From assembly GCA_030673825.1 (NCBI GenBank), contig JAUTCS010000075.1, forward strand, positions 1-64,000: a DNA stretch of 64,000 bases, in the 5' to 3' direction. The stretch comes from Verrucomicrobiota bacterium JB024 (GTDB lineage: Bacteria; Verrucomicrobiota; Verrucomicrobiia; Opitutales; Cerasicoccaceae). Position numbers and translations under genes: made by a program. The stretch's first letter is position 1; each line of letters starts with the position of its first letter. Under the pieces are notes generated by a model. That model saw only the letters and a program-made list of their open reading frames with translations, ran no database searches and had not been told where the DNA came from. Positions 10,272 through 52,338 of this stretch are shown piece by piece.

Positions 10272-10323
10272 TCAGGGCAATGACAACTGGATCCTTAAAA
10301 GGGTCCTGATGAGCGCCGCAACC

Positions 10324-10581
10324 TCAGGAGGCTTGCTTCTCCTTGATGTAAGCAACGACGTCACCGACGGTACGGAGCTTTTCCGCGTCGGATTCGGGGA
10401 TTTCGCCCTGAATTTCGTCCTTGAATTCTTCCTCGAAAGCCATGACGAGCTCAACCTGGTCGAGCGAGTCGGCGCCGAGATCTTCCATAAAGGAAGCATC
10501 GGGAGTCACCTGCTCTTCATTCTTGTTGAGCTGGTTGACGATAATTTCCTTAACGCGTTCTTCGATAGTTTTATCGGCCAT
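10324..10581 (-). CDS. acpP: Acyl carrier protein
   Basis: The product is an 85-aa acidic protein starting [20 protein letters not shown]. The phosphopantetheine attachment serine is Ser39 in the canonical motif [16 protein letters not shown] chose the ATG at 10581 because upstream codons are not ACP-like. It carries growing acyl chains between the Fab enzymes. It sits between fabG (28 bp upstream) and fabF. Confidence 0.97.
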
Positions 10582-10609
10582 ATTCTTGATGGAGTAAGTA
10601 GTCAGTTGT

Positions 10610-11356
10610 TTACATCGCCATGCCGCCGTCAACCGTAAAAGTTTGACCGGTGATATAGCCCGCTTCCTCGGAGGCGAGGTAGGTGACCATGCTGGCGATT
10701 TCTTCGGGTTGTCCAAAGCGTTTGAGAGGCACGAGCTTTTTCGCGGCTTCGGTGACTTCCTCGTTCAGCGCGGCGGTCATGTCCGTGGCGATAAAGCCCG
10801 GCGCAACCGCGTTGACTGTGATGCCCCGGGAGGCGACTTCGCGGGCCATGGACTTGGTCAGGCCGAAAATGCCCGCCTTGGCGGCGGCATAGTTGACCTG
10901 GCCGGGATTGCCCATGATCCCAACGACCGAGGAAATATTAATGACGCGGCCCCAGCGCTTGCGGGTCATGGGGCGCAGCAGGCCCTTGGACCAGTAGAAG
11001 CAGCTGGAGAGGTTGGTCGAGACGACATCGCTCCAGTCCTCGTCGGTCATGCGCAGCATGAGCGTGTCGCGGGTGATACCCGCATTGTTGACGAGGATGT
11101 CCACGTTTTCGTGCTCCTTGAGGAGAGCTTCGCAGGCGTCGGCCACCATGGCCCCGTCGGAGACGTCCACGGCCAGGGCGGAGGCGCGGCCTCCGGCGGC
11201 CTTGATGGCCTCGGCGACGGCGCCGCAGGAGGATTCGTTACGGCTCACACAGACGACGAATACGCCCTCGGCAGCGAGGCTCTCGGCGATGGCGCGACCG
11301 ATCCCACGGCCCGCTCCGGTGACCACGGCCACCTTGTTCTCAAAAGTCAGATTCAT
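10610..11356 (-). CDS. fabG: 3-oxoacyl-ACP reductase
   Basis: A 248-aa short-chain dehydrogenase from the ATG at 11356 ([16 protein letters not shown]). The reading frame stays open upstream to 11452, but that extension is not family-like. Motifs: cofactor loop TGAGRGIG at residues 13-20, NNAG at 90-93, catalytic Asn115, Ser142/143, Tyr156 and Lys160 (YAAAK), and the C-terminal [14 protein letters not shown]. It reduces 3-oxoacyl-ACP with NADPH. It is first gene of the operon with acpP and fabF. Confidence 0.96.
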
Positions 11357-11639
11357 TCGGGAAAAGGGTAAACAGGCGACAGTGCCCGCCCTGCCGGTCA
11401 ACGCAAGCAAAAATCTGCCCGTAAACTTTCCCCCCGCCGCCCCGGCACACATCTCCAGCTCTCATAAAAAGCGGCACAATCGCCCCGAAACGGGCTAAAA
11501 ACGGGCAAAAGGCAGCACAGCGGGGCCGTTTCGGCGGGTTTTTATGGGAAATACACCGGATGTCGTCTTCCGAAAAAACGCCGGAGCCACCCGCCCCGCA
11601 CCGCCCCACTCTGCACCGACCAACGGGAGACATCCCCCT

Positions 11640-11767
11640 GTTGTCATCCTGAGTAAGTCCGCTTTGCGGACGCATCGAAGGATCTCCTCGTCCGATCTGC
11701 TGGAGCGACTCGAAAAAGCCCACACCAGGAGATCCTTCGACTCGCTGCGCTCGCTCAGGATGACAAC
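11640..11767. repeat. Long inverted repeat, TGTCATCCTGAG type
   Basis: Left arm from 11640 (GTTGTCATCCTGAG ... CGAAGGATCTCC) and right arm from 11728 to 11767 (GGAGATCCTTCGA ... CTCAGGATGACAAC) are inverted copies with small differences in the middle. Together they form a stem of about 40 bp. This class of repeat is widespread in unrelated bacterial genomes. It lies in the 550-bp spacer between the divergent fabG and cls genes; the remainder of that spacer (11357-11639 and 11768-11906) shows nothing else recognisable. Confidence 0.8.
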
Positions 11768-11906
11768 GAGTGCGACCCTGACATAAGCTACCGCGCGGAC
11801 TTGGCGTGCTGCCCTGACTTTTCCGGGGACGCTCCAGTTAGACCAAACCGTTTATGCAGCGGTATAAGGGTTGATTTGTCCCAGGGCGTCCCCATAAAAA
11901 TGAGGC

Positions 11907-13367
11907 GTGGAATCCCAGCACGATTACGTCGTGGACATCTTCTTTCTCCTGCACTGGACGCTGGCCATCGCCGTCACGCTGCGGGTGATCATGCGCCGCA
12001 ATTCGGTCGGAGTGGCCCTCGCCTGGCTCACCCTGGTCTTTTTCCTGCCGATGGCCGGGTCGATCCTGTACATCATTTTCGGTGAGATCAGCGTCGGACG
12101 TGCCCGCACCAAGCGCGCCCTGCGGCTCATCCAGCCCTTCAAGCAGCTGATCAACGACCGGCGGCAGCGCTTCGACATCGACTGGTCGAAGCAGTCCGAG
12201 GCCGCCCTCCTGCTCTCCCGGCACGCCTACAACGCCGTCAATCTGCCCGTCCTCCCCGGTAACGACCTGGAGCTGCTCGACAATTGCCAGGACATCCTCC
12301 GGCGCATGATTCAGGACATCCAGCAGGCCACCCAACGCGTGCACATGGAGTTCTACATCTGGCACCTGGGCGGGATCGCCGACGAGGTCATGGCCGCCGT
12401 GATCGAGGCCCGCCAGCGCGGGGCGCATTGCCGCATCCTGCTCGACTCCATCGGCAGCCACGAGTTCCTCAAGAGCGAGCTGTGCCACAAGGCCCGCCAG
12501 GCCGGGGTCGAGATCGCCGAGGCCCTGCCCGTGCGCTGGCTGCGCAACTTTTACCGCCGCCAGGACCTGCGCCTGCACCGCAAGATCGTGGTCATCGACG
12601 GCGAAGTCGCCTACACCGGCAGCCTCAACCTGGTGGACTCGCGCCACTTCAAGACCAAGGCCGGGGTCGGCCAGTGGGTGGACAGCATGGTGCGCGTGCG
12701 CGGGCCGGTGGTCGAGGCGCTCGCGGTCGTCTTCCTGGCGGACTGGAGCATCGAGACCGGGATGAGCTTCGACCGGATCAAGGAAGAGGGCGGGCTCAAG
12801 GAGCTCGACGAGGCCGGGGACTCCTTCGTGCAGGTGGTGCCCTCCGGGCCGGGCTTTTTCAACCAGTCCAGCTACCAGAGCATCCTGACCGCCATTTACC
12901 TGGCGAAAAAGGAACTCGTCTTGACCACCCCGTACTTCGTGCCGGACGAGGCCGTGCAAATCGCGCTGGTCTCCGCCGTCATGCGCGGGGTCCAGGTCAC
13001 CCTCATCATGCCGGAAAAGGTGGACTCAAAGCTCGTCCACCACGCCAGCCGCGCGTACTTCGAGGAACTGCTGGAGGGCGGCGTGCGCATCGCGCTTTTC
13101 AAGGCCGGGCTCCTGCACTCCAAGACCGTCACGGTGGACGGCGAAATCGGCCTCATCGGCTCGGTCAACCTCGACCAGCGCAGCCTCTGGCTCAACCAGG
13201 AGGTCACCCTCTTCGTGTACGACAGCGCGTTCACCCAACGCCTGCGCAAGGTCCAGCAAAGCTACATCGACAACTCCGACATCCTCCACCTCGCCACCTG
13301 GAAGAAACGCCGCTTCCACCAGCGGTTACTGGAGAATGCACTGCGCCTCACCGGGCCGCTGCTGTAG
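11907..13367 (+). CDS. cls: Cardiolipin synthase (phospholipase D superfamily)
   Basis: A 486-aa protein with two N-terminal membrane helices (about residues 10-27 and 36-58), including the cls leader motif RRNSVGVALAWLTLVFFLPM. Two HKD phosphodiesterase motifs follow: H224-x-K226-x4-D231 (LHRKIVVIDGEVAYTGSLN) and H404-x-K406-x4-D411 (LHSKTVTVDGEIGLIGSVN). It joins two phosphatidyl units into cardiolipin at the inner membrane. The best start is GTG at 11907 (MESQHDYVVDIFFLLHW); a nearby ATG at 11900 is out of frame. It diverges from fabG. Confidence 0.94.
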   Translation: MESQHDYVVDIFFLLHWTLAIAVTLRVIMRRNSVGVALAWLTLVFFLPMAGSILYIIFGEISVGRARTKRALRLIQPFKQLINDRRQRFDIDWSKQSEAALLLSRHAYNAVNLPVLPGNDLELLDNCQDILRRMIQDIQQATQRVHMEFYIWHLGGIADEVMAAVIEARQRGAHCRILLDSIGSHEFLKSELCHKARQAGVEIAEALPVRWLRNFYRRQDLRLHRKIVVIDGEVAYTGSLNLVDSRHFKTKAGVGQWVDSMVRVRGPVVEALAVVFLADWSIETGMSFDRIKEEGGLKELDEAGDSFVQVVPSGPGFFNQSSYQSILTAIYLAKKELVLTTPYFVPDEAVQIALVSAVMRGVQVTLIMPEKVDSKLVHHASRAYFEELLEGGVRIALFKAGLLHSKTVTVDGEIGLIGSVNLDQRSLWLNQEVTLFVYDSAFTQRLRKVQQSYIDNSDILHLATWKKRRFHQRLLENALRLTGPLL

Positions 13368-39501: not shown

Positions 39502-39771
39502 ATGATCAAACGCCAGATACTTCGCCAGACCATCCTTCTCCAACTGGAGGCAGCCGCCCCGGCCTTTCTCCCCGTCGAGACGCTGCTGACCGGCATCCGC
39601 GCCGCCGGCTACGAGATCAACGACAAGCTCCTGCGCCGCGAGCTGACCTACCTCGATGACAAATCGCTCATCGACAGCGCGCTGCCCGACCTCGACCCTG
39701 CCGACCGGCGCTACCGCCTCGGCGCCGCCGGACAGGACTTCCTCGATGCCAACGGGCTGAGCCAGTCCTGA
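39502..39771 (+). CDS. Small winged-helix-like protein, first gene of capsid cassette
   Basis: An 89-aa protein (MIKRQILRQTILLQLEAAAP). The pattern LRRELTYLDDKSLIDSALPD followed by RRYRLGAAGQDFLDANG has the shape of a small winged-helix domain: recognition helix, beta wing, then the C-terminal 'G-x-DFL' helix. Similar short proteins precede the terminase genes of Mu-like phages. It could be a cassette regulator or a packaging accessory. The gene starts the one-strand run that ends at 50673, 29 bp before the small terminase gene. Confidence 0.7.
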   Translation: MIKRQILRQTILLQLEAAAPAFLPVETLLTGIRAAGYEINDKLLRRELTYLDDKSLIDSALPDLDPADRRYRLGAAGQDFLDANGLSQS

Positions 39772-39789
39772 CCGCCCTTTTCTTTTTAC

Positions 39790-39808
39790 GTATCGAAAAA
39801 ATGGATAC
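39790..39808. repeat. GTATC...GATAC inverted repeat at terminase small subunit start
   Basis: GTATC, 9 nt of A-rich sequence, GATAC; the site overlaps the start codon (39801) of the next gene. Related full sites are at 49220-49237 and 49517-49535, and half sites occur at several other cassette gene junctions. Confidence 0.65.
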
Positions 39809-40397
39809 GCCACAAATAGCTTTCTCCGGGAAACCGGGATCAGAGAAAAGCCAGAGCAGTAGTGAGACACCGCCGCCGGTCGGTCCCGTCGAGTCGGCCC
39901 CCGTCACCGGGCAGACGACGCAAAGCCGGCACCCCAACCACGAGACGGGCGGAGCCCCTGAGGGCTCCGCCCCCTCACCGGCGGGCGCGGACAGGGAAGC
40001 CTTTCTTGCACATCTGACTTCCCTTCGTTGGGCAAAAAAAATCACCAACCTGATTCTAAGAACCAACAACCCCAAGCACAGAAAAGTTCGAGGAACCATC
40101 GACCACACTTGGCAACTCCTCTTCGAGCTCGTCCGAAATGTCAGCAAAGGGGCCAAGTCCTTCGATCAGGCCGAGTTGGCAACTTACAACACGCTTTCAT
40201 CGATTATCCAACGGCTCAGTTCATCCTACATCCAGATCAACAATCTTGAGACAAAGCTCTGCGTCGACGAGCAGGAGCGCTTCGAACGCGAAAAGCAGAA
40301 GACTAAAATGCTTCAGGACCTCAAGGACGCCCGCACCCGCGGCGGCCTCACCCTCGAAACCATCCGCGAGCTCGAGCAGACGCTCAAGCTGCTATGA
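39801..40397 (+). CDS. Probable terminase small subunit (Mu gp27-position protein)
   Basis: A 198-aa protein. Residues 1-68 are Pro/Ser/Gly-rich and disordered. Residues 70-198 are helical and charged (RWAKKITNLILRTNNPKHRK ... ELEQTLKLL) with a coiled-coil C-terminus. I do not recognise the sequence itself. The call rests on position: it overlaps the large terminase start by ATGA, where Mu-like phages place their small terminase. The helical part is AT-richer than the neighbours. No clear shortened start is available, and the MDTPQ start overlaps the GTATC/GATAC repeat. Confidence 0.55.
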   Translation: MDTPQIAFSGKPGSEKSQSSSETPPPVGPVESAPVTGQTTQSRHPNHETGGAPEGSAPSPAGADREAFLAHLTSLRWAKKITNLILRTNNPKHRKVRGTIDHTWQLLFELVRNVSKGAKSFDQAELATYNTLSSIIQRLSSSYIQINNLETKLCVDEQERFEREKQKTKMLQDLKDARTRGGLTLETIRELEQTLKLL

Positions 40398-41869
40398 CCG
40401 CCCACGCCCCCACCGCCATGAACGCCTCCCCCGTCACGACTTCCGCCGCTCAGCTCGCCCAGACTACGGCACAGCCGCTGCCGTTTTTCCTGCCCTATCA
40501 GCGCAAGTGGATCGAGGACACCTCGCGACTGAAAATCATGGAAAAGTCGCGCCAGATCGGCCTGTCCTGGACCAGCGCCTACAGCCTCGTGCGGGAGCAG
40601 TCCCGCTCCGACGCCCGGCTCGACGCCTGGGTTTCCTCCCGTGACGAGATGCAGGCCCGCCTCTTTCTGGAGGACGCCAAGTCCTTCGCCTCCATCCTGC
40701 ACCGCGCCGCCGGGGACCTCGGCGCGACTGTGGTGAGCGAGGGTGGCGGCTCGGCCTTCGCGCTGGAGTTCGCCAACGGCCGACGCCTGCACTGCCTCTC
40801 CAGCAACGCCGACGCGCAGGCGGGCAAGCGCGGCACGCGCCTGCTCGACGAGTTCGCGCTCCACCCCGACCCGCGCCACCTCTACGCCATCGCCTATCCC
40901 GGCATCACCTGGGGCGGTCAGCTCGAGATCGTCTCCACTCACCGCGGCTCGAACAATTTCTTCAACCAGCTCATCCGCGAAGTCACCGAGCAGGGCAACC
41001 CGAAGGGCTTCTCCCACCACCGCGTCACCCTCCAGGACGCGCTCGACCAGGGCTTCCTCACCAAGCTCAAGGAAAAGCTCCCGCCCGAGGACCCCCGCGC
41101 CCACATGGATGAGGCCGCGTACTACGACTTCATCCGCGCCTCCTGCGCCGACGAGGAGAGCTTTCAACAGGAGTACCTCTGCCGCCCCGCCGACGACACC
41201 ACGGCGTTTCTGTCCTGGGAGCTGATCAGCGAGTGCGAGTACGCCGCCCGCGACGAGTGGGAGATCCCGCTTGCGGCCTGTGCCGCCGGGGACGCGGAGA
41301 AGCAGGGGCGCGACCTGCGCCTGGCCCATGACCTGTACCTGGGCGTGGACATCGGACGCGAGCACGACCTGTCCGTCTTCTGGCTGGTCGAGCGCATCAA
41401 CGACCTCTCTCTCACCCGCAACGTCACCACGCTCGAGCGCACGCCCTTCGCGCAGCAGGAGGAGGTGCTCGACGCCTTCCTCTCGCTGCCCACCCTGCGC
41501 CGCGCCTGCATCGACCAGAGCGGCCTCGGGCGGCAGTTCGCCGAGCGCGCCGCCGCCCGCTACGGCGGCTACCGCGTCGAGGGGGTGACCTTCACCGCCG
41601 GGCTCAAGGAAGCGCTCGCCTACCCCGTGCGCAGCGCCTTCGAGAACCGCACCCTGCGTATCCCTCCGGACAAGCGCATCCGTGCCGACCTGCGCGCCGT
41701 CAAAAAAGAAGCCACCGCCTCGGGCAATGTCCGCTTCTGCGCCGAGCGCGGGGCCAACGGCCACGCCGACCGTTTCTGGGCGCTCGCCCTCGCCCTCCAT
41801 GCCGGACGCCAGCCCGCCGCCCGCGCCACCCACTACGAATCCCTTAATCTCCCGGCCCGCGGTCGCTGA
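40394..41869 (+). CDS. Phage terminase large subunit (Mu gp28-like)
   Basis: A 491-aa packaging motor. The ATPase domain has a gp28-type Walker A variant, MEKSRQIGLSW, at residues 50-60, and a Walker B region GTRLLDEFALHPDP. The RNase H-like nuclease starts at DLYLGVDIGREHDLSVFW, near residue 315. The C-terminal GANGHADRFWALALALHA is a hallmark of Mu gp28 homologues. Full length and apparently intact. It cuts and translocates DNA into procapsids. The gene overlaps the previous one by 4 bp (ATGA), indicating coupled translation. Confidence 0.92.
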   Translation: MTAHAPTAMNASPVTTSAAQLAQTTAQPLPFFLPYQRKWIEDTSRLKIMEKSRQIGLSWTSAYSLVREQSRSDARLDAWVSSRDEMQARLFLEDAKSFASILHRAAGDLGATVVSEGGGSAFALEFANGRRLHCLSSNADAQAGKRGTRLLDEFALHPDPRHLYAIAYPGITWGGQLEIVSTHRGSNNFFNQLIREVTEQGNPKGFSHHRVTLQDALDQGFLTKLKEKLPPEDPRAHMDEAAYYDFIRASCADEESFQQEYLCRPADDTTAFLSWELISECEYAARDEWEIPLAACAAGDAEKQGRDLRLAHDLYLGVDIGREHDLSVFWLVERINDLSLTRNVTTLERTPFAQQEEVLDAFLSLPTLRRACIDQSGLGRQFAERAAARYGGYRVEGVTFTAGLKEALAYPVRSAFENRTLRIPPDKRIRADLRAVKKEATASGNVRFCAERGANGHADRFWALALALHAGRQPAARATHYESLNLPARGR

Positions 41870-41883
41870 GTGATCCATCCCGA

Positions 41884-41903
41884 ACGTATCCAATTTTAAC
41901 TAC
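41884..41903. repeat. Direct repeat ACGTATCCAATTTTAACTAC, copy 1
   Basis: A 20-nt sequence upstream of the portal gene; it recurs with one mismatch at 44332-44351 upstream of the decoration protein gene. It contains the GTATCCA half of the cassette motif. Confidence 0.7.
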
Positions 41904-41918
41904 ACAAACGCCACCTCC

Positions 41919-43133
41919 ATGAAAACCGCCTCCCTCATCCCGACCGATCGCGCCCGCAGTTCCCGACGTGCGACGTTTAACCCGATCCGCCACCTCACGC
42001 CGGGGACGCTCACGCGCATGCTCGACTCCTTTCACGCCGGGGAGCTGCGCCAGGCCGCGCTGGCCTGGGAAGCGATCGAGCAGCGCGACGACCTCGTCAA
42101 GGCCGTCGCCACCAAGCGCAAAAAAGCCGTCGGGCGCTTCGGCTGGGAGATCGAGTCCTTTGACGATTCCGAGGAAGCCCGCCGCCACGCCGCCGCGCTG
42201 AAATTCCTCTACCGCCAGCTCACCGCCGCCCACGCCTGCGATCTCAACGAGATCGGCGGCTTTTCCCTGCTCGTACGCCAGATGATGGACGCCGTCGGCA
42301 AACGCTACGCCGTCCACGAGATTGTCTGGCAGCCCGTGCGCCGAGCCACCAATCAGGAGACGGACGAGCCCGAACTGCCCGCCACGCTGTTGACCGCACA
42401 GTTCCGATTCGTGCCGCTATGGTTCATGGAAAACCGCACCGGACGGCTGCGTTTCCTGGAGAGCGACACCGCAACGCAGGGCCGTGAGCTGGAGCAGGAC
42501 GGTTGGCTCGTCACCACGGGCGACGGGCTGATGGAGGCCACCGCCATTGCCTATCTGTTCAAGCACCTGCCCCTGCGCGACTGGCTCGTATACTGCGAGC
42601 GCAACGGCATGCCCGGCGTGCGCGGCGTGACCGACGCCGCCCCCGGCACCCCCGAGTGGGAGGCCGCCCGCGACGCCGTGCGCGACTTCGGGGCGGAGTT
42701 CCATGCGCTCATGTCGCGGGGAACGGAGATCGAGGCCATCGACCTGCGCGGCGGCGGCGAGCTGCCCTACCCCGCGCTCGTGGACCGCATGGACAAGGCC
42801 ATCGCCACGCTCTGGCGCGGCAGCAGCATGGGCACCGTGGCCGACTCCGGAGCGGGTATCTCGCTCCAGGGCAAGGAGACCGCGCTGATCGAGCGCGAGG
42901 ACGCCGAGCACATCGCCGGCACCCTCCACACTCAGGTGGACCGCCCCGCCCTGCGCTTCCTTTTCAATACGGACCAGCCACGCGCCCGCGTCGTCATCCG
43001 CCACAAGGAAAGCGGTCTCTCGTCCGAGGAGCTCGACACCGCCCGCGACCTGCTCAGCACAGCGATCCCCAAGGTTATTCACCAGTTCGTCCGCCGCCTG
43101 ATGGGCAAGAGCAATGCCCCGCTGAGCGCGTAG
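41919..43133 (+). CDS. Phage portal protein, DUF935 (Mu gp29-like)
   Basis: A 404-aa protein with DUF935 features: RQAALAWEAIEQRDDLVKAV and KRKKAVGRFGWEIE near the N-terminus, EIVWQPV, YLFKHLPLRDWLVYCERNGM centrally, and the C-terminal ARDLLSTAIPKVIHQFVRRLMG. Portal dodecamers form the DNA gate at one capsid vertex and dock the terminase. At 404 aa it is shorter than Mu gp29 (about 510), mainly at the C-terminus, which in Mu reaches toward gp30/tail-side partners; those partners are absent here. Confidence 0.9.
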   Translation: MKTASLIPTDRARSSRRATFNPIRHLTPGTLTRMLDSFHAGELRQAALAWEAIEQRDDLVKAVATKRKKAVGRFGWEIESFDDSEEARRHAAALKFLYRQLTAAHACDLNEIGGFSLLVRQMMDAVGKRYAVHEIVWQPVRRATNQETDEPELPATLLTAQFRFVPLWFMENRTGRLRFLESDTATQGRELEQDGWLVTTGDGLMEATAIAYLFKHLPLRDWLVYCERNGMPGVRGVTDAAPGTPEWEAARDAVRDFGAEFHALMSRGTEIEAIDLRGGGELPYPALVDRMDKAIATLWRGSSMGTVADSGAGISLQGKETALIEREDAEHIAGTLHTQVDRPALRFLFNTDQPRARVVIRHKESGLSSEELDTARDLLSTAIPKVIHQFVRRLMGKSNAPLSA

Positions 43134-43199
43134 TTAAAATCCATGACAGACTGACACGCTCATCAAAAGCAACACCACCAACTTTATTTCCAGACATCC

Positions 43200-44327
43200 A
43201 TGAACGAAGACACGATCACCACTCTCGTCACCCAGGAATGGTCCAATGCCACCTCCGGGTGGCTCAAGCTCGCCGACTACGGCGACTGGCCGCACGCCCG
43301 TGGCATCCAGCGCCTCAGCCGCGAGGCCGCCGGGCACATGTGTGAGTATTTCAAGTCCCTGCGCGGGCGCCTGGCCCGGCGCTTCGGCGGGCTGCCCGTG
43401 TACATCGGCCACCCGGACGATCCCGGCTTCGCCGGAAACAGCGGCCACGACGACACCCGCGCCTACGCCTGGATCGCCGACATGCAGGACCGCGATGACG
43501 GCCTCTATGTGCTCCCGCGCTGGTCTCAGGCCGGACGAGAACTTCTCGCCAACGCCTTTTATAAATTCCTCTCTCCCCGCTGGGCCATGCGCCACCTGGA
43601 GGCCGACATCTACGAGCCCGTCCGCCTCATCTCCATCGGCCTGACCAACCAGCCCAATATCCCCGGCGAAACCATCGCCAACGAGCTTCGCCCGGACAGA
43701 CCTGCTGAATCTACCAACACGGATGTCGAGAAACACACGGACGGCACGACGAACCTGGACGGCTCCGCCCCCGAGTCCCGTCCGGTCGAAGCCCTCGACG
43801 TGCTGGAGCTGCTCGGCGTGGACCCCGAGGGCGACTGGCGCGGGGCCTGCCGCGAGCTCGCCGCCAACGCCCGCCGCTGGCAAAAAGAAGGTGCCGAGCT
43901 GGCCGACACCAACACCGAGCTCTCCGCCGAAAACGAACGCTTTTACCGCATCGCCAACGAGAGCGAGAGAACACGCACGCACTCGCAGGAAGCCTTCGCC
44001 AACGAGCGGCGTGCACGCATCGCACTGTTGCTCGATCACGCGCTGTTGCGCGGACGCATCCTGCCCCACGAGCGTGAGACCTGGGAGCGAGGGCTGGAGG
44101 CGGACTTTGACACCGGTCTGCGTGAGCTCTGCAACGCCGAGTGCGCCCTGCACACCCAGCCCCGCACACGCGAACTCGGGCGGCGCGCCCCACTCGTGCA
44201 GAAGCGCCGCGATTTCCTCGCACTCGTCAACGAGCGCATCGACAGCACCGGGGAAGATTTCAGCACCGCCTGGTCCGCCCTCAAGCGCGACCGCCCTGAC
44301 CTCTACGACCAGCTCAAGCTTATTTAG
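43200..44327 (+). CDS. Mu-like I protein: capsid maturation protease with scaffold region
   Basis: A 375-aa protein. Residues 15-165 match the Mu I-protein domain (WLKLADYGDWPHARGIQRLS, LPVYIGHPDDPGFAG, AYAWIADMQDRDDGLYVLPRW, RLISIGLTNQPNIPG). Residues 200-300 are charged and coiled-coil-like (ELADTNTELSAENERFYRIA), as expected for an embedded scaffold. It would shape and then proteolyse the procapsid interior. The position between portal and capsid is standard for Mu-like head modules. Confidence 0.88.
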   Translation: MNEDTITTLVTQEWSNATSGWLKLADYGDWPHARGIQRLSREAAGHMCEYFKSLRGRLARRFGGLPVYIGHPDDPGFAGNSGHDDTRAYAWIADMQDRDDGLYVLPRWSQAGRELLANAFYKFLSPRWAMRHLEADIYEPVRLISIGLTNQPNIPGETIANELRPDRPAESTNTDVEKHTDGTTNLDGSAPESRPVEALDVLELLGVDPEGDWRGACRELAANARRWQKEGAELADTNTELSAENERFYRIANESERTRTHSQEAFANERRARIALLLDHALLRGRILPHERETWERGLEADFDTGLRELCNAECALHTQPRTRELGRRAPLVQKRRDFLALVNERIDSTGEDFSTAWSALKRDRPDLYDQLKLI

Positions 44328-44331
44328 TCAC

Positions 44332-44351
44332 ACGTATCCAATTTTCACTAC
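44332..44351. repeat. Direct repeat ACGTATCCAATTTTCACTAC, copy 2
   Basis: Matches the copy at 41884-41903 at 19 of 20 positions; located 63 bp ahead of the decoration protein gene. Confidence 0.7.
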
Positions 44352-44413
44352 TAAAAGGCCCAACCTGAATCCCTTCGGAGAAAACCGACATCAACCACCA
44401 ACAACCATTCGAC

Positions 44414-44953
44414 ATGATTCGTTTCCTTAAAAACCTGTTCAAGACCCGTCCGGTCTTCGCAAACGTCGCCGAGGGTGTTCACCCCGGCCTCGTCACCCGC
44501 ACCCTCGAAAGCACGGTTACTACGCGCCATCTGATCGGCAAGACCGGCAGCACTGCCAGCCAGGTCGCCGTCTGTGGGGCCGCCGACAGCCCGCTGGGCG
44601 TCATCACCGACACCGGCGCGGCGGGCGACCCCGTCAACGTCAACCTCCTGTCCTCCACCCGCACGACCGCGCTCATGATCGCCGCCGAGGCCATCTCGGT
44701 CGGTGAGGACGTGTACACCGCCACTGGTGGCAAGGTGCAAGACCAGCCCGTCGTCACGGGGACCTACTACCAAGTCGGCCGCGCCCTCACGGCGGCCACC
44801 GGCGACGGCTCCATCATCGAGGTCGAGCCCTGCGCCCCGCGTAAGCTGATCGTGGCCGAGGCCTTCACCGGCGTCGGTAACACCGACGTGATCACGCTGG
44901 CGGGCATTCTCCAGCAGGGCCCGGACAAGATCGTCATGCTCCCGGACATGTAA
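44414..44953 (+). CDS. Capsid decoration/DUF2190-like protein
   Basis: A 179-aa protein made of short glycine-rich beta segments (GKTGSTASQVAVCGAADSPL, GVITDTGAAGDPVNVNLL, VYTATGGKVQDQPVVTGTYY, VGRALTAATGDGSIIEVEPC). This pattern is typical of DUF2190/head-stabilising decoration proteins encoded just before major capsid genes. Its first 20 residues are basic and hydrophobic (MIRFLKNLFKTRPVF). It probably cements the mature shell. The assignment rests on composition and position. Confidence 0.7.
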   Translation: MIRFLKNLFKTRPVFANVAEGVHPGLVTRTLESTVTTRHLIGKTGSTASQVAVCGAADSPLGVITDTGAAGDPVNVNLLSSTRTTALMIAAEAISVGEDVYTATGGKVQDQPVVTGTYYQVGRALTAATGDGSIIEVEPCAPRKLIVAEAFTGVGNTDVITLAGILQQGPDKIVMLPDM

Positions 44954-44992
44954 TGCCCGGTCAATACACCAACCCTTCATCCTCATTCCATC

Positions 44993-45934
44993 ATGAACAC
45001 CGAGAAAATTGAAACTCCCCGCACCGGCGAGATCACGGCGGCCAACGAGAGCCGCTTCAACGCCGCCCACTACTCCGAGCCGCTGACGGCCTTCACCGTC
45101 GGCTGGAAGGACCCCGAGAGCCTCGACGAGCTGCTCGACTTTGTCGCCCCGCGCGTGCAGGTGGGCCGCCGTTTCGAGTTCAAGCGCGCGACCAACGCCG
45201 AGGCCTTCTTCTCCGAGGCCGACGACGTGCGTGCCGTCGGCAGCGCCTTCAAGCGCGTTGAGTACACCGGCGACACCGTCAACGCCAAAACCCTGAACAA
45301 GGGCCTGACCATGCGCATCGACCACGACGAGGTGTACGGCGACGACTGGCAGGAGCGCTATGTGCAGATCCTGCTCCAGCGCCTCCTGCGTAACGAACTG
45401 CGCCGCGCCATCTCCGCGCTCGACACCGCCGCCACCTCCACCAGCCACACCTGGGACGAGTCCGGCACTCCGGACGCGGACATCCGTGCGGCCCTTATCG
45501 ACGCCGCCGACGAAAGCGGCGTACGCCCGAACCGCCTCCTCTTCGGCGAAAGCGCGTGGGACATGCGCGCCGCCGCCTACGAGTCGCAGGACAATGCCGG
45601 GGCCTTCCGCTCGCTCGCGCTCGACCCGCAGAGCCTCGCTCGCAAGCTCTTCGTGGACGGCGTCCGCATCGCCGGCGTGCGCTACCAGAGCTCCGGCAGT
45701 GAAAAGTCCGGCCTGCTTGGCAACGCCGTGTACGCCTTCTTCGAGCAGAACGCCGTGACCAAAGACGAGCCCTCCAACCTGAAGCGCTTCGTCACCCCGG
45801 TGGACGGCGGCGGCCACTTCCGCGTGTACGTGGAGGAATCCGCCAAGTTCACCGACCTCACGGTCGAGCACTACAGCACCGTCATCGCCAGCAGCGCCCT
45901 GGGCGTGCGCAAGCTCGCCGTCAGCGCCTCCTAA
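44993..45934 (+). CDS. Major capsid protein (HK97-fold type)
   Basis: A 313-aa protein. Residues 40-75 (SLDELLDFVAPRVQVGRRFE) and 95-125 (KTLNKGLTMRIDHDEV) resemble the N-arm and E-loop region of GpT/phage capsid families. The C-terminal part has the P-domain-like helix and beta strands (RLLFGESAWDMRAAAYESQD, GHFRVYVEESAKFTDLTVEH). No extra head-fusion is visible. Its position after protease and decoration genes and the strong hairpin just downstream support the capsid call. Confidence 0.8.
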   Translation: MNTEKIETPRTGEITAANESRFNAAHYSEPLTAFTVGWKDPESLDELLDFVAPRVQVGRRFEFKRATNAEAFFSEADDVRAVGSAFKRVEYTGDTVNAKTLNKGLTMRIDHDEVYGDDWQERYVQILLQRLLRNELRRAISALDTAATSTSHTWDESGTPDADIRAALIDAADESGVRPNRLLFGESAWDMRAAAYESQDNAGAFRSLALDPQSLARKLFVDGVRIAGVRYQSSGSEKSGLLGNAVYAFFEQNAVTKDEPSNLKRFVTPVDGGGHFRVYVEESAKFTDLTVEHYSTVIASSALGVRKLAVSAS

Positions 45935-45951
45935 CCCGTCTCCCGCCATCC

Positions 45952-45980
45952 GAAGGGCGGGGGCAAATCCCCCGCCCTTC
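45952..45980 (+). terminator. Strong hairpin after the major capsid gene
   Basis: Perfect 12-bp arms GAAGGGCGGGGG and CCCCCGCCCTTC with loop CAAAT, 17 bp after the capsid stop codon. It lacks a T-tract, so it may be a partial terminator or an mRNA-stabilising structure that raises capsid over downstream gene expression. Confidence 0.65.
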
Positions 45981-45997
45981 CCCAACATTTCATTGTC

Positions 45998-46459
45998 ATG
46001 ACAAACTGGATACACCTAACCGAGTCCGACCTGCGCGCCTACCTCAACGCCTCCCAGATCGAAACGCTGCTCACGCGCCCCAACCGGGGAAACGCCGCCG
46101 ACCCGCTCGCGCCCATTCTGGAGCAGACCGTCAGCCGCATCCGGGCCGATATCCGCAGTCGCGAGACGAACGTCCTATCCGAAGACCAGAGTGCCATTCC
46201 GCCTGAGCTCAAGCGCACGGCCAGCCTGCTCGCCATCGCCGACCTGCCGGGGAAGATCCGCGGTTTTACCCTGACCGAAGCTCAGGAGGACGCCGCAGAC
46301 GAGGCCGAGGATGTCCTCGACCGCATCCGCGACGGCGACCTGCCTGTGCGCGTCCCCGCCGATCCGCAACCGACCCCCGAAGTCCGCACCGAATTCGGAC
46401 TGGAAGTCGCCCGCAAACGCTCGATCCGCCTCAGTGGCGATCAGTTGAACGGCCTCTGA
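45998..46459 (+). CDS. Gp36/DUF1320-like head completion protein
   Basis: A 153-aa protein with the usual gp36 layout: N-terminal WIHLTESDLRAYLNASQIET, a long helix ending in ADIRSRETNV, LKRTASLLAIADLPGKIRGF, and an acidic loop preceding DVLDRIRDGDLPVRVP. In Mu-like phages this protein is a connector at the portal vertex that prepares tail docking. The start region carries TGGATACACC, a half of the cassette motif. It is the last recognisable structural head gene. Confidence 0.78.
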   Translation: MTNWIHLTESDLRAYLNASQIETLLTRPNRGNAADPLAPILEQTVSRIRADIRSRETNVLSEDQSAIPPELKRTASLLAIADLPGKIRGFTLTEAQEDAADEAEDVLDRIRDGDLPVRVPADPQPTPEVRTEFGLEVARKRSIRLSGDQLNGL

Positions 46460-46507
46460 TCAGCCCAATACCGCCACCCACCCTTCACCGCCTCACCCGA
46501 CATCACG

Positions 46508-48919
46508 ATGAGCACCTTTCCAAAGACCCGTATCCGCATCGCCGCGGACCTCTTCAGCTACACCGCCTTCGGTGACGTCCTCCGCGCCGCCGAGGATGAC
46601 TACCGTCCGAAGTTCCGCGCCGGGGACGACATTCAGTTTGAGATCGGCCTGTTTAACAACGGCGAGCTTCTCGACCTCTCCGGCATCGCAGCCGTCACCC
46701 TTGAGATCAAGCCGCTGGACTCCGAATTGACTGAGCGCTTCGACGAGGACGACGACGCCGACAACTACGACCTGCGCGGGCCGGACCTGAACCTGACCCC
46801 CATTCGCAGCAAGACCCTCTCGGCCTCCGAGCTCAACGCCACGCTGACGAAGAGCGGCTGGGACAGCAACGCCTCCGAGCAGTGCCACGCGCTGATTGCC
46901 CTCAGTTCGGCCGAGAGCAACATCGCCGCCGGCGACCGGTGGCTGAGCATCGGCATTGTCACCGGCGACAGCCCTGGTCGCATCCGCACGGTCTGCGCCG
47001 GACCTATCCGCGTGCTCGGGGGCGGGCTCAGTCAGGCGGCTTCGCCCGAGGGAGACACACCTGAGACCTTTTATAATACGGCGGAGGCAGACGCGCGCTA
47101 CCTCAAACTGGCCAACAATCTCTCAGACCTGGCCGACTCCGCCGCTGCCCGCGGTCACCTCGGGCTAGGAGAGGCGGATAGTCCGAGCTTTGGCGGTCTG
47201 ACGATCAGCAGCGGAGGTGTAGTGGATTTTAATGACAACAGGTTGATCGAAGTTGGAGACGCCATTGGCGACACAGATGGCCTCAACCGCCAGAGCGCGG
47301 ATGCCCGCTACCTTAAGCTCTCCGAAAGTGGTGCAGACATTGCAGATCCCGATGCCTTTCGTGATCATCTTTCGATCTACAGCCGCAAGGACGTCGACAC
47401 CCTCGCCGCCAAGACCTTTGGCCCGGCGCTGTACCTCGATGGTGTGACTGGTGCCGTGACGCTGCCCGCCGCAGTCGGTGCAGCCTTCGCGAGTTCTTCC
47501 ACGATTGCCATCCGCCTACGCCTCGCGGACGGGCGGCCCGCCGCAGTCGGTTGCCTGCTGGGCTACTCGACCGGGGCCATTCCCGACACGTCGTTCCAGC
47601 TCCTGCTCAACACCAACGGCTCACTCAAGCTCCTCCTGCGCGACGGCACCTCGGAGGCCAGCACCCAGTCTGCTGTCCTCTTTGCCGACGGGCCGAGCCG
47701 CGAAGTCACGGTTGTCGCCACCATCGACACGGTGGCAGGGGTGGCCACGCTTTATCTGGATGGCAGCCAGGTCGCCTCGCTGGACATCTCCACGATGGAT
47801 TTTGCGGCTGGCATCTGGGGCGCGCCCGCGCTCGGCGCTCTGCTCTCGAGCGGCACCCCTGGCACGCGTTTGGCCGCCTACTTCGTCGCGTGCGCTATCT
47901 ATAATCATGCCCTGTCCGCCACCGAGGTCGCCGAGCGCTACGGTCTGCAACCGACCTGGCCGGTCGTGTCCGCACAGAAACACGCGGCAGGCGTGGTCTT
48001 TGCACCCGACTTCAGTACCATCAATACATACACGTCCGGCATTTTGACAACGCTTGACAACAACGGAGTTTCCGACGGAGCGACAACGTTCGACGACTGC
48101 CTTTCCTTGACCTGTTCGGTTAATCAGTCCCAATGCTATATCTCGTTTATCGCCGACTCCTTTGCCCCTAAAGCCGGTGAAACCTACCGTGTGACGGGAT
48201 GGGCCTATGCCCCATCGTCCAACTCCACGATAGATGCCATCGCGTTCAAGGACGGGCAGGCCGGGAACCTTATCAGTAACTACCCTTCCGGCATCATCGA
48301 CATCTCCGGGCAATGGACCCGGATCGACTTCACTTATACGGCAAGCGTCTCGGATATGCCGCGCATCAACATGGCCAACGTGGGGCAGAGCGTGCCCAAC
48401 ATCGGCTTTGACGCAACGACAGGAGATATCATTTACCTCCAGGGGCTGAAATACACCAAGCTTGGAGCGCGGGCATACTACGATGCCGCGCAGGATTCCC
48501 GTGTCGGCTATCAACTCCGCGACCTAGGTGGCAACGGCCTGCACGGCCTGCACAGTCCCACCGGCTGCACCTGGCTGGAGGCGGGCACGCGCGGACAGCT
48601 CACGCTCTCGGGCTTCACCGCCGATGCCTGGTTGGGCGGCTCCGAACGGGCACTCATTCCAGCGGGCTATCGCATCGCTGAGATCATCGCCACGGAAACA
48701 GCGGGCGTGGGTGTGAACAACCTCGCCCTCGGCACCACGGCCAACGGTACCGACCTCGTATCCAGTTTTTCACTACTGTCAAATGAAACAAAATCGCTCG
48801 CTGTGGCCGCCCCCTTTGCAGCCAAGAGCGTCACCAAGCCCGTCCACCTCAACGACGCCCCAGGCGGCTCCTGGGGCGGGGCAAAGATCACCCTCACCTT
48901 CATCCTGGAGAAGTTCTGA
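46508..48919 (+). CDS. Fibre/appendage-like protein with LamG domain
   Basis: An 803-aa protein. Residues 1-190 form a beta domain with an acidic loop (FDEDDDADNYDLRG). Residues 190-280 contain phage tail-fibre-style repeats (ADARYLKLANNLSDLADSAA, SADARYLKLSESG). Residues 300-470 are a LamG/concanavalin domain (ALYLDGVTGAVTLPAAVG, GVATLYLDGSQVASLDI). The middle and C-terminus look like carbohydrate-binding modules (YRVTGWAYAPSSN), and the extreme C-terminus (GGSWGGAKITLTFILEKF) like a fibre tip. Probably a receptor-binding spike. GC drops in parts (47.1-47.4 and 48.0-48.5 kb), suggesting host-range exchange. No chaperone gene follows. Confidence 0.72.
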   Translation: MSTFPKTRIRIAADLFSYTAFGDVLRAAEDDYRPKFRAGDDIQFEIGLFNNGELLDLSGIAAVTLEIKPLDSELTERFDEDDDADNYDLRGPDLNLTPIRSKTLSASELNATLTKSGWDSNASEQCHALIALSSAESNIAAGDRWLSIGIVTGDSPGRIRTVCAGPIRVLGGGLSQAASPEGDTPETFYNTAEADARYLKLANNLSDLADSAAARGHLGLGEADSPSFGGLTISSGGVVDFNDNRLIEVGDAIGDTDGLNRQSADARYLKLSESGADIADPDAFRDHLSIYSRKDVDTLAAKTFGPALYLDGVTGAVTLPAAVGAAFASSSTIAIRLRLADGRPAAVGCLLGYSTGAIPDTSFQLLLNTNGSLKLLLRDGTSEASTQSAVLFADGPSREVTVVATIDTVAGVATLYLDGSQVASLDISTMDFAAGIWGAPALGALLSSGTPGTRLAAYFVACAIYNHALSATEVAERYGLQPTWPVVSAQKHAAGVVFAPDFSTINTYTSGILTTLDNNGVSDGATTFDDCLSLTCSVNQSQCYISFIADSFAPKAGETYRVTGWAYAPSSNSTIDAIAFKDGQAGNLISNYPSGIIDISGQWTRIDFTYTASVSDMPRINMANVGQSVPNIGFDATTGDIIYLQGLKYTKLGARAYYDAAQDSRVGYQLRDLGGNGLHGLHSPTGCTWLEAGTRGQLTLSGFTADAWLGGSERALIPAGYRIAEIIATETAGVGVNNLALGTTANGTDLVSSFSLLSNETKSLAVAAPFAAKSVTKPVHLNDAPGGSWGGAKITLTFILEKF

Positions 48920-48965
48920 CCGCCAACATCCAGAAACCAACAATTAGCAATCAGCCATTTAACCC

Positions 48966-49205
48966 ATGAATCCTTATTTAGCCATCATCGACCTCGAAGC
49001 CTCCTACAACGATACACCGGTCAAGCTCGGCTGGCGTGGCGGCATCCTCGGGGACTACCTGCTGGGCGACCTGCTGTCCGCCGACGGCGAGACCGTCATC
49101 GCGGCGGGCATCACTGCCAGGACCGAGCTCATCGCCACTGCCGCAGACCTCACCGTGGCCAACGTCCGCGCCGCCTACCAGGCTGAGCTCGGCCTGAGCG
49201 CCTAG
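48966..49205 (+). CDS. Small hypothetical cassette protein
   Basis: A 79-aa acidic protein (MNPYLAIIDLEASYNDTPVK) with a repeated Leu/Gly pattern (LGWRGGILGDYLLGDLLSAD) and a helical end. I do not recognise it. It sits between the fibre-like and holin-like genes in the same direction with 46 and 36 bp spacing, so it belongs to the cassette. A role in fibre attachment or a small virion component is possible. Confidence 0.6.
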   Translation: MNPYLAIIDLEASYNDTPVKLGWRGGILGDYLLGDLLSADGETVIAAGITARTELIATAADLTVANVRAAYQAELGLSA

Positions 49206-49219
49206 CAGGCTGTCTATCT

Positions 49220-49237
49220 GTATTCAAAACTGGATAC
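49220..49237. repeat. GTATTC...GGATAC inverted repeat ahead of holin-like gene
   Basis: GTATTC, AAAACT, GGATAC, followed by ACCC and the ATG at 49242. It nearly repeats the site at 49517-49535. Confidence 0.7.
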
Positions 49238-49241
49238 ACCC

Positions 49242-49511
49242 ATGAAATCCCCCCAGACCACAACCATCGCCATCCTGGCCATCGCCGCCGGTGCGTTTCG
49301 CGTCCTGTACGCGGTCCTGGCCGAGGGCGCGTTACCCGGCACCGAGGATATCGCCCTTGTGCTCTCCGGCGTCGGCTTCCTGTTTGCCCGCGACAACAAC
49401 CGCACCGACCGCGAATCCGGGGCCGACGACGCCGAGGCCACCCGCGAGCTCAAGCGGGCCGTCAAGGCCACCCGAGCCACTCCCCCCGCCGATCACGGCC
49501 CTCGCCACTAA
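49242..49511 (+). CDS. Small membrane protein, holin-like
   Basis: An 89-aa protein. One to two hydrophobic stretches (TIAILAIAAGAFRVLYAVLA and DIALVLSGVGFLFA) are followed by a highly charged C-terminal tail (ARDNNRTDRESGADDAEATR). Size, topology and position before lysis-type genes fit a class II holin. The sequence itself is not one I recognise, so this rests on architecture. Confidence 0.6.
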   Translation: MKSPQTTTIAILAIAAGAFRVLYAVLAEGALPGTEDIALVLSGVGFLFARDNNRTDRESGADDAEATRELKRAVKATRATPPADHGPRH

Positions 49512-49516
49512 CCTTT

Positions 49517-49535
49517 GTATTCAAAACATCGATAC
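49517..49535. repeat. GTATTC...GATAC inverted repeat ahead of lipoprotein gene
   Basis: GTATTCAAAACATCGATAC precedes GCC and the ATG at 49539. The first 11 nt are identical to those of the site at 49220. Confidence 0.7.
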
Positions 49536-49538
49536 GCC

Positions 49539-50039
49539 ATGAAACATTTAAAAACCATTACACTCGCCGCCGCCCTCGGGGCGGTCACGATCCCGCCACT
49601 CCTGACTCTTAGCGGCTGCGACACTCTTCGGTCCGTCTGGGCTCAAACACCCGAGCCCGTCAAGGCCACGGCCATCACACTCGGGAAGGCCGCCGCCAAG
49701 CTCGCGCTTAACATCGGCTTCACAGCCTTTCTGGACGGCGTCAACGAAACCGATCCCTACCGCGAACAGCTGCTAACCCTGCTGGGCGCAGTTGACGACG
49801 CCTTCGAGACCGGAGCCGATGCCTCGCAGGCGGCTTCGGCGGTCGCTGCCGACATCGCGGGCTCGGACCTGCCCGACGCGACCAAGTCCGCCCTCATCGA
49901 CGAGTTGCTGGCCGCGCTCGCCGCCCAGAGCGAAGCCGAGACGCAGACCGTGGCCGCGGGCGGCGACCAACAGCCCAATTACGGCGGGGCGCTCTACGAG
50001 CAGCTCACCCTCACCCAGACCTGTCTGGACGACCAATAA
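49539..50039 (+). CDS. Cassette lipoprotein of unknown function
   Basis: A 166-aa protein from ATG 49539 (MKHLKTITLAAALGAVTIPP). A lipoprotein signal peptide ends in the lipobox LSGC (Cys near residue 28). The mature part is helical, alanine-rich and acidic (ASAVAADIAGSDLPDATKSA) with a Gln/Gly-rich tail. An in-frame start 8 codons upstream would place the GATAC site inside the coding region and is less likely. It is probably anchored in the envelope; in a lysis module it might act as a spanin-like or immunity protein, but no homology is evident. Confidence 0.65.
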   Translation: MKHLKTITLAAALGAVTIPPLLTLSGCDTLRSVWAQTPEPVKATAITLGKAAAKLALNIGFTAFLDGVNETDPYREQLLTLLGAVDDAFETGADASQAASAVAADIAGSDLPDATKSALIDELLAALAAQSEAETQTVAAGGDQQPNYGGALYEQLTLTQTCLDDQ

Positions 50040-50057
50040 GTCAGCCCCGCCTCTACC

Positions 50058-50097
50058 GCCCGCCCCGGAAGGAACTGCCGGGGCGGGCTTCTTTTTT
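50058..50097 (+). terminator. Rho-independent terminator directly before the cysteine peptidase gene
   Basis: Perfect 11-bp arms GCCCGCCCCGG (50058-50068) and CCGGGGCGGGC (50078-50088) followed by TTCTTTTTT. The T-tract ends 3 bp before the ATG at 50100, leaving no room for a ribosome-binding site, so transcription into the last two cassette genes would need antitermination or read-through. Confidence 0.85.
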
Positions 50098-50099
50098 CC

Positions 50100-50564
50100 A
50101 TGGACACGCCCTCTCCCCTCTCAGCGACCACCTGGGCCGCCGCACTGGCCCGGCGCTACCCCCGGCTTCCGGCGGAGCGCACCACTTTCCGCGACGGCAT
50201 TTACCGGCCTGTGCCGCGCGCAGACGCGCTCAGCCTGCATATGGAATTTCTGGCGTGGATGCGAACGATCCTCGAACCCCATGGCGTCTTTGGTTGGGTG
50301 AAGGACAAGGGCGACTGCGACTTCTGGAGCCGCTTGTTCATCGCCTACGTGCTGTTGCGCAACGTCATCGGCCAGGCTCCGAACAAGCCCGCCCTGGCCG
50401 AGATCCACTTTTTGAAAACCCCCGCCGACTCACGCAGCGGGCATTCCGTGTGTTCGCTGCTGGATGAGCGCATGCGCGTTTACGAACTCGACCCGCAGCC
50501 CGGCTGCGGACTGACCCGCCTGACCGATGCCCAAGCCGCCACTTGCCGTTCTCTGGATGCTTAG
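50100..50564 (+). CDS. Transglutaminase-like cysteine peptidase, putative lysis enzyme
   Basis: A 154-aa protein. A papain/transglutaminase-type triad is arranged as expected: Cys73 in KDKGDCDFWSRL, His115 in SRSGHSVCSLLD and Asp131 in YELDPQPG. These match the GDC...GH...D pattern of bacterial transglutaminase-like cysteine peptidases. No signal peptide is seen, so export would need the holin-like protein. The location between a holin-like gene and an Rz1-like lipoprotein suggests a role like an endolysin cutting peptidoglycan stem peptides. Substrate is inferred only. Confidence 0.6.
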   Translation: MDTPSPLSATTWAAALARRYPRLPAERTTFRDGIYRPVPRADALSLHMEFLAWMRTILEPHGVFGWVKDKGDCDFWSRLFIAYVLLRNVIGQAPNKPALAEIHFLKTPADSRSGHSVCSLLDERMRVYELDPQPGCGLTRLTDAQAATCRSLDA

Positions 50565-50673
50565 CCTCGTCCTGAGCGCCTGCGCACCCGAGCCCAGCCG
50601 CGATTTCCCGCGGACCTACCCGGCCCTGCCCGCCGGTTCTACGGAAATCTCACCCACCGCGGCGGAGCCGTGA
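50527..50673 (+). CDS. Rz1-like proline-rich outer-membrane lipoprotein (o-spanin candidate)
   Basis: A 48-aa protein read in another frame and starting inside the end of the previous gene (overlap 50527-50564). It begins MPKPPLAVLWMLSLVLSAC, with lipobox LSAC at residues 16-19, followed by a short proline-rich mature part (APEPSRDFPRTYPALPAG). Size, lipobox, proline content and embedding in a lysis gene are typical of Rz1 outer-membrane spanin subunits. The matching inner-membrane Rz partner was not found, unless the holin-like protein or the cassette lipoprotein fills that role. Confidence 0.6.
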   Translation: MPKPPLAVLWMLSLVLSACAPEPSRDFPRTYPALPAGSTEISPTAAEP

Positions 50674-51588: not shown

Positions 51589-52338
51589 ATGCGCCCCATG
51601 TTCGTTGCCGTCTGCCTCGCCTCCTGGCTAACTGTCACTGGCGCGGCTTCTGCCGCCGTGACTGACCCCCAGTTGCGGGAGATTCTGGACGGATACGTTG
51701 AGCAGTGCGGGGGCCGATACACCATCCAGGATCTCAAAAGCCTGCGCTGGGAGGGTGACCTGAGCGAGGACGGTACAGTGGTGGCCGAGGTGATCATCGT
51801 GCGTAAACGTCCCGGTAAGATACGCCTGATGCTGCAACAGGGCCCGCGCAAACTCACCATGGGTTACAACGGCAAAACCTGCTGGACAACCCAGAGTTAC
51901 AACGGCAAGACGACCAAGACAGAAACACTCGAGCCGACAGTGGCGGCCAACCTCATCCGCGAGGCTGACCTGATCGACGCGCTCGCCGGCTACCGCGATT
52001 CCTCGTACACCTACACGCTTATCGGCGAGGAAAGCCTCGGCGGCACGGACGCGTATGTGATCGGGGTTACTCGCCCCGGCGTCCAGGGCACTGAGACCTA
52101 CTACCTTTCCAAGGACGAGTTGAAGCTTCTCCAGCGCGTAATAAAGGCGCCCCCCACCGACACCGGGGCCGACGAGGAGACCGTCACCGTTTACCACGAC
52201 TTCCGCACCGTCAACGGCGTGCTCCTGCCCTACGCCACCACCACCCTCCTGCCCAACGGGCGAAGGCAGGATCTGCAGTGGGAAACCATCGACCCCAACG
52301 CCGGGGTCTTCGACTACTACTTCGAAGTACCGAAGTGA
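51589..52338 (+). CDS. LolA/LppX-like periplasmic lipid- or lipoprotein-carrier protein
   Basis: A 249-aa protein with a signal peptide (MRPMFVAVCLASWLTVTGAA). The mature part has the LolA-like half-barrel pattern: an N-terminal helix (LREILDGYVEQCGG), then strands such as LRWEGDLSEDGTVVAEVIIV, KPGKIRLMLQQGPRKLTM-like segments and TVYHDFRTVNGVLLPYATTT. Such proteins carry lipids or lipoproteins between membranes. No Lol operon partner is adjacent. Fold-level assignment only. Confidence 0.65.
   Translation: MRPMFVAVCLASWLTVTGAASAAVTDPQLREILDGYVEQCGGRYTIQDLKSLRWEGDLSEDGTVVAEVIIVRKRPGKIRLMLQQGPRKLTMGYNGKTCWTTQSYNGKTTKTETLEPTVAANLIREADLIDALAGYRDSSYTYTLIGEESLGGTDAYVIGVTRPGVQGTETYYLSKDELKLLQRVIKAPPTDTGADEETVTVYHDFRTVNGVLLPYATTTLLPNGRRQDLQWETIDPNAGVFDYYFEVPK

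Follow-up and report, generated by a model that had tools for sequence, protein, structure and literature searches.

The cassette of head, packaging, fibre and lysis genes at positions 39502-50673 of the window (the whole 64,000-nucleotide stretch of contig JAUTCS010000075.1 that was analysed) probably descends from a Mu-headed phage that was domesticated by the host and has since been passed on vertically; it would thus be a viriform resembling the gene transfer agents (GTAs). It is called GTA-like and is not filed as a GTA, its particles, their cargo and any transfer being predictions. On the best reading, its heads would be either tail-less or furnished with tails from resident siphoprophages. 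No published GTA of Verrucomicrobiota was found in the literature searched, and the cassette points to a DNA-packaging particle owned by the host that would be new to this phylum.

Gene content of the cassette

The cassette, annotated by Pfam and PHROGs profile matches, consists of 14 ORFs, all open and all on the plus strand, in which a Mu-type head and packaging module is followed by a LamG fibre and then by a lysis cassette (Table 1). Most adjoining genes are separated by gaps of 3-86 bp or overlap shortly, which bears out the tight same-strand packing described in an earlier, sequence-only reading of this DNA. The identities given there to the large terminase, portal, protease, decoration protein, capsid and fibre are backed by the Pfam and PHROGs matches. 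The Gp36 connector and the small terminase fared less evenly: Gp36 stays below the Pfam cut-off, but homologous loci carry both genes.

Table 1. Genes of the cassette and the evidence for their annotation
Predicted product	Position in window	Strand	Evidence
Winged-helix-like 89-aa protein (cassette gene 1), possible DNA-binding protein	39502..39771	+	phrog_436 1.4e-5; congeners 61-91% identical
Small terminase candidate	39801..40397	+	Place in the cassette and a family of homologues at other loci; itself without a family match
Large terminase (ATPase and nuclease)	40394..41869	+	Terminase_6C/6N; Walker A-like KSRQIG, LDEFA and nuclease aspartates conserved
Mu-type portal (DUF935)	41919..43133	+	Portal_Mu 4e-57 (Pfam)
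Mu I-like head maturation protease	43200..44327	+	Mu-like_Pro 2.3e-14 (Pfam)
Head cement/decoration protein	44414..44953	+	Phage_cement_2 3.5e-6; phrog_673 4.7e-12
Major capsid protein	44993..45934	+	phrog_1005 7.7e-10
Gp36 head-completion/connector protein	45998..46459	+	Pfam 0.0016 (below cut-off); homologue cluster at same position
LamG-domain fibre	46508..48919	+	Laminin_G_3 3.4e-7; tail-fibre PHROGs; homologous to sister-cassette fibres
79-aa protein, role unassigned	48966..49205	+	G054 counterpart 73% identical
Holin-like membrane protein	49242..49511	+	54% identity to prophage copy in same genome
Lysis-cassette lipoprotein	49515..50039	+	37% identity to prophage copy in same genome
Putative cysteine peptidase/endolysin of lysis cassette	50100..50564	+	57% identity to prophage copy in same genome; no family match
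Rz1-like small lipoprotein, overlapping the peptidase gene	50527..50673	+	Lipobox-like LSAC; analogous ORF at same place in L208

The lysis labels (holin, lipoprotein and cysteine peptidase), at first guessed from the window, gain support because the same holin-lipoprotein-peptidase order recurs in an integrase-bearing prophage of the same genome, at the end of which (contig C62) all three genes have matches (identities in Table 1); the peptidase remains without a family match, and no homologues of it were found in viral contigs. Only the window and one congener (G054) pair the cassette with lysis genes of this type; in many other cassettes, a gene for a holin-like membrane protein lies upstream instead. 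This shows the lysis part to be exchangeable, and the module of the window was probably taken from prophages.

Genomic surroundings

The cassette is bordered by an S8 subtilase gene (opposite strand) before it and an esterase gene after it, and genes of CorA, a sensor kinase, glycine dehydrogenase, AlgH and a rhomboid protein lie farther out, as expected from the ordinary chromosomal surroundings reported for it earlier. Its GC content (0.649, vs. 0.635 and 0.643 in the flanks) is host-like. The scanned neighbours of the cassette are host genes or unmatched, with no sign of an integrase, an excision gene or a regulator of the satellite type, and genes for replication or integration are lacking in the cassette itself. 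With a single copy between host genes, one Mu portal and no second in the source genome, and the GC content of the host, it is fully endogenised.

Tail-protein families built from related prophages or from sister cassettes gave zero matches across the whole 75-kb contig, and profile searches detected neither Phage_sheath nor Baseplate_J in the source genome; the sheath was found in none of nine relatives within the window's family. The absence of tail genes, first noticed at the locus, thus extends to the whole contig, and a linked Mu-like tail block, which the sequence-only reading had named as the finding that would speak against it, appeared neither on the contig nor in the searches made. 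The MuA-type transposase profile (PF02914) had no match in 14 genomes and was silent on its control too. The source genome is 95% complete and consists of 163 contigs, one of which, a short one (C62), bears a separate prophage end (L208) with a tyrosine integrase, a beta-helix tail spike and a lysis cassette of the window type.

Distribution across the order and relation to tailed prophages

The capsid gene is present in 100 of the 373 genomes and in 43 of the 100 genera of the order Opitutales, mostly in one copy, a count that includes a minority of distant matches of the prophage kind. It was found in 9 of 10 genomes of the window's family (f1), 18 of 19 of f17 and 9 of 11 of f7, and several capsid-bearing families have genomes of 0.7-1.0 Mb. 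A scan of named genomes connects the window's family with Cerasicoccus (isolates of C. arenae, C. frondis and C. maritimus) and f17 with Opitutales from the gut, Marseille-Q1082 for instance; the small genomes are connected with MAGs of Puniceicoccales, whose codes we take to be those of termite-gut surveys. A search of phage records with the capsid gave no match. The cassette, recurring across the order and usually in a single copy, is not an isolated defective prophage.

Two groups of loci could be separated on the basis of 40 loci that were read, plus about 100 further loci: (i) tailed Mu-like prophages, which keep homologues of gpF and gpG, and (ii) single-copy cassettes, which lack both. 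Some gut genomes of f17 carry a cassette as well as a tailed Mu-like prophage. The cassettes form a single clade (SH-aLRT 96) in a capsid tree of 112 rows, apart from nearly all tailed prophages, the exceptions being the viral contig L185, placed inside the cassette clade, and the cassette-like locus L142, placed outside it. L185 also carries phage genes, and its place inside the clade means that some horizontal exchange occurred. The same contig holds two adjoining, related capsid genes (9950-11968). Rearrangements were seen in two loci of f17 (L044 and L046), where the terminase genes are found upstream in reverse orientation and the cassette is split or inverted, and in L139 (18581-20200), where they lie approx. 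7 kb downstream of the capsid block.

Descent with the host and selection

The capsid and rpoB trees of 23 genomes have 13 of 20 splits in common (Mantel r 0.54, p 0.0019); for the portal, compared with rpoB in 23 genomes, the agreement is weaker (10 of 20 splits, p 0.037). The congeners of the window have the same subtilase gene upstream and the same gene downstream (d51; 51589-52338 of the window), CorA lies upstream in the sister genus as well, and a distant homologue of d51 occurs downstream in two other families. Mostly vertical inheritance is indicated by the capsid-rpoB congruence together with these common flanks.

The head genes, which are conserved in their order as well as in sequence, evolve under purifying selection. 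In the pairs measured, which include lineages without tail genes, the Nei-Gojobori dN/dS was 0.04-0.20 for the capsid, 0.05-0.18 for the portal, 0.11-0.27 for the large terminase and 0.15-0.25 for the protease, i.e., below 1 throughout (0.04-0.27); cement, small terminase and fibre genes are under looser constraint. The ATPase and nuclease motifs of the terminase are unbroken in all complete cassette rows. The earlier claims that the recognised head genes are intact, and that intact frames speak against random decay, are thereby strengthened for the head genes.

Tail reduction

In the families f7, f17, f26, f27 and f28, the genes after Gp36 code for a gp37-like protein, a protein of 130 aa, in most cases a fibre, and a protein of approx. 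580 aa. In structure searches, the AlphaFold model of the 130-aa protein (pLDDT 87) resembled tail-tube folds (best E 2e-4), and that of the approx. 580-aa protein (pLDDT 80) resembled the hub fold that occurs in Mu gp44, in VgrG and in the spikes of contractile injection systems (lowest E 2e-14), which supports their assignment as predicted tube-fold and hub-fold tail proteins. Because no tape measure was seen between the tube and hub genes, these sister cassettes code at most for a stub tail.

A hub profile was found in 6 of 6 control genomes of hub-bearing families and in 0 of 16 genomes of f1, f5, f21 and f4. The window's family and two more have neither tube nor hub, but their head genes are still constrained, and Gp36 is also missing from three species of Cerasicoccus and from f5 (two genomes), where other genes directly follow the capsid gene. 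The families f1, f5 and f21 do not group together in the best rpoB tree, but forcing them into one clade was not rejected (p-AU 0.08); tail loss may have been single or repeated.

Tail donors and alternative explanations

Borrowed tails are possible, because congeners carry tailed siphoprophages. Siphoprophages with tape-measure and baseplate-hub genes were found in G020, G054 and G039, those of the congeners having tube and tip genes too. Tail genes of the congener siphoprophages L214-L217, present in two copies in G054, resemble those of RcGTA (BR0599, a gp84-like hub and Rcc01698_C). A split tail locus, first suggested by a search with the tape-measure family PF10145, was rejected, as the loci proved on reading to be separate siphoprophages. 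In the single-contig genome G094, four tape-measure-like matches with an exact spacing of 35,720 bp (L219-L221; contig C1, 4487448-4594904) reflect either tandem copies of a prophage-like unit or an error of the assembly.

These donors bear on the explanation that the cassette is a capsid-forming satellite (cf-PICI-like), or a domesticated equivalent, which makes its own heads, packs DNA and takes siphophage tails from the same cell. Heads without tails normally need tails for injection, and the host genome does hold an integrase-bearing prophage end (on C62) with a lysis cassette in common; approx. 0.6 Mb of that genome (41 stretches), read for siphoprophage tail genes, contained no convincing one. 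The three Cerasicoccus species with the most reduced, head-only cassette showed no tape measure, sheath or hub in a search that distant families would escape. The cassette is, moreover, a single-copy locus that descends with its host and has no integrase, excision gene or satellite regulator beside it, so that the mobile satellite put forward by the sequence-only reading is disfavoured and we regard satellites of either form as unlikely.

Slightly less likely still are domesticated heads with a role other than transfer, such as interference with phages through the capture of their DNA or head parts, altruistic lysis, or the release of protected DNA for the public good. Such roles would suit a cassette that dispenses with tail genes in three families yet keeps its terminase, portal and capsid constrained, and whose lysis genes are swapped among lineages; the retained portal and the intact terminase nuclease nevertheless argue for DNA packaging, and the hub, tube and fibre kept in sister lineages serve delivery. 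An ordinary Mu-like prophage in decay after losing its tail and transposition genes could account for the missing tail genes and transposase (none seen), for further losses such as that of Gp36, and for a similar three-gene remnant in 'Ca. Marcellius' (two Mu-like proteins and the large terminase), which was called a degraded prophage (PMC6920513), but is very improbable in view of dN/dS well below 1, intact catalytic motifs, frames unbroken across the order and near-universal presence in some families. The 'Ca. Marcellius' remnant may be the same cassette.

Comparison with known systems

Several points count against the GTA-like reading: (i) the loss of tube, hub and in places Gp36 is odd for a delivery particle, (ii) the lysis module of the window accompanies the cassette in two species only and looks recruited from prophages, (iii) the place of L185 in the capsid clade reveals some horizontal exchange, and (iv) the literature searched offered no GTA of this phylum as a precedent. 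Low protein carbon is a signature of alphaproteobacterial GTAs. It was not seen here: the cassette proteins are not carbon-poorer than the phage versions, with a slightly opposite tendency for capsid and portal.

GTAs are defined by caudoviricete-derived proteins, caudovirion-like particles, endogenisation and mostly vertical inheritance with co-diversification with the host, and further by packaging of mostly random host DNA, a set of own genes exceeding one head, and delivery of DNA to other cells (PMC9662315). The Pfam and PHROGs matches show caudoviricete-derived proteins in the cassette, and the features of the definition that can be judged from sequence are present, particle form aside: the head gene set is complete, and tail genes are absent in the window's lineage and reduced to a stub in sister families. 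Like RcGTA and other GTA viriforms (PMC9662315), the cassette combines chromosomally fixed head and packaging genes of phage origin with lysis genes, vertical descent, purifying selection and order-wide spread; unlike RcGTA, it had a Mu-headed ancestor, its tail is a stub or lost, its proteins are not carbon-cheap, and its packaging of host DNA and its transfer activity are putative. With Mu-like phages (Muvirus and relatives) it shares the DUF935 portal, I-type protease, Gp36, terminase, cement and a Mu-like gene order, but gpF/gpG, tube and tape measure, and the sheath and baseplate of a contractile tail, were not found; no transposase was seen, and its phylogeny follows the host. The cf-PICIs likewise have head and packaging genes without tail genes. 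The cassette differs in its Mu-type head set, its fixed chromosomal place in close relatives and its co-descent, and neither an integrase nor PICI regulators were found adjoining its head genes.

Among the four options offered by the sequence-only reading, vertical descent, single copy, selection and flanks favour the GTA-like or domesticated particle, and the head genes speak against the decaying prophage. If the cassette is such a GTA-like viriform, the expressed proteins would assemble heads, and the terminase would load these by way of the portal. The load would most likely be fragments of host DNA, packed by the headful mechanism, as suggested by the lack of replication and integration genes. 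Gp36 and the lectin-like fibre would close the neck, and the holin, peptidase and lipoprotein would lyse a subset of cells, from which the released heads could bring protected DNA to kin. Delivery without a tail might proceed by fibre binding and uptake by the recipient; alternatively, the heads could join tails made by a resident siphoprophage.

Significance

A wider and more tentative proposal, possible but short of probable in our judgement, is that the cassettes constitute an order-wide, independently domesticated class of GTA-like viriforms in Verrucomicrobiota, one branch of which is wholly tail-less and makes heads that bear fibres, contain DNA and leave the cell by lysis. The number of independent GTA lineages recognised so far is small. 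The paper on GTA classification evaluates three of them (PMC9662315), and an order-wide, Mu-headed cassette would, if this proposal is true, add one independent lineage. It would also mean that gene transfer, or another function of the particle, repays its cost even in genomes smaller than 1 Mb. Because families differ in how much of the tail they have lost, they offer a direct test of what such a particle needs, and the head-only form is present in cultured strains of Cerasicoccus.
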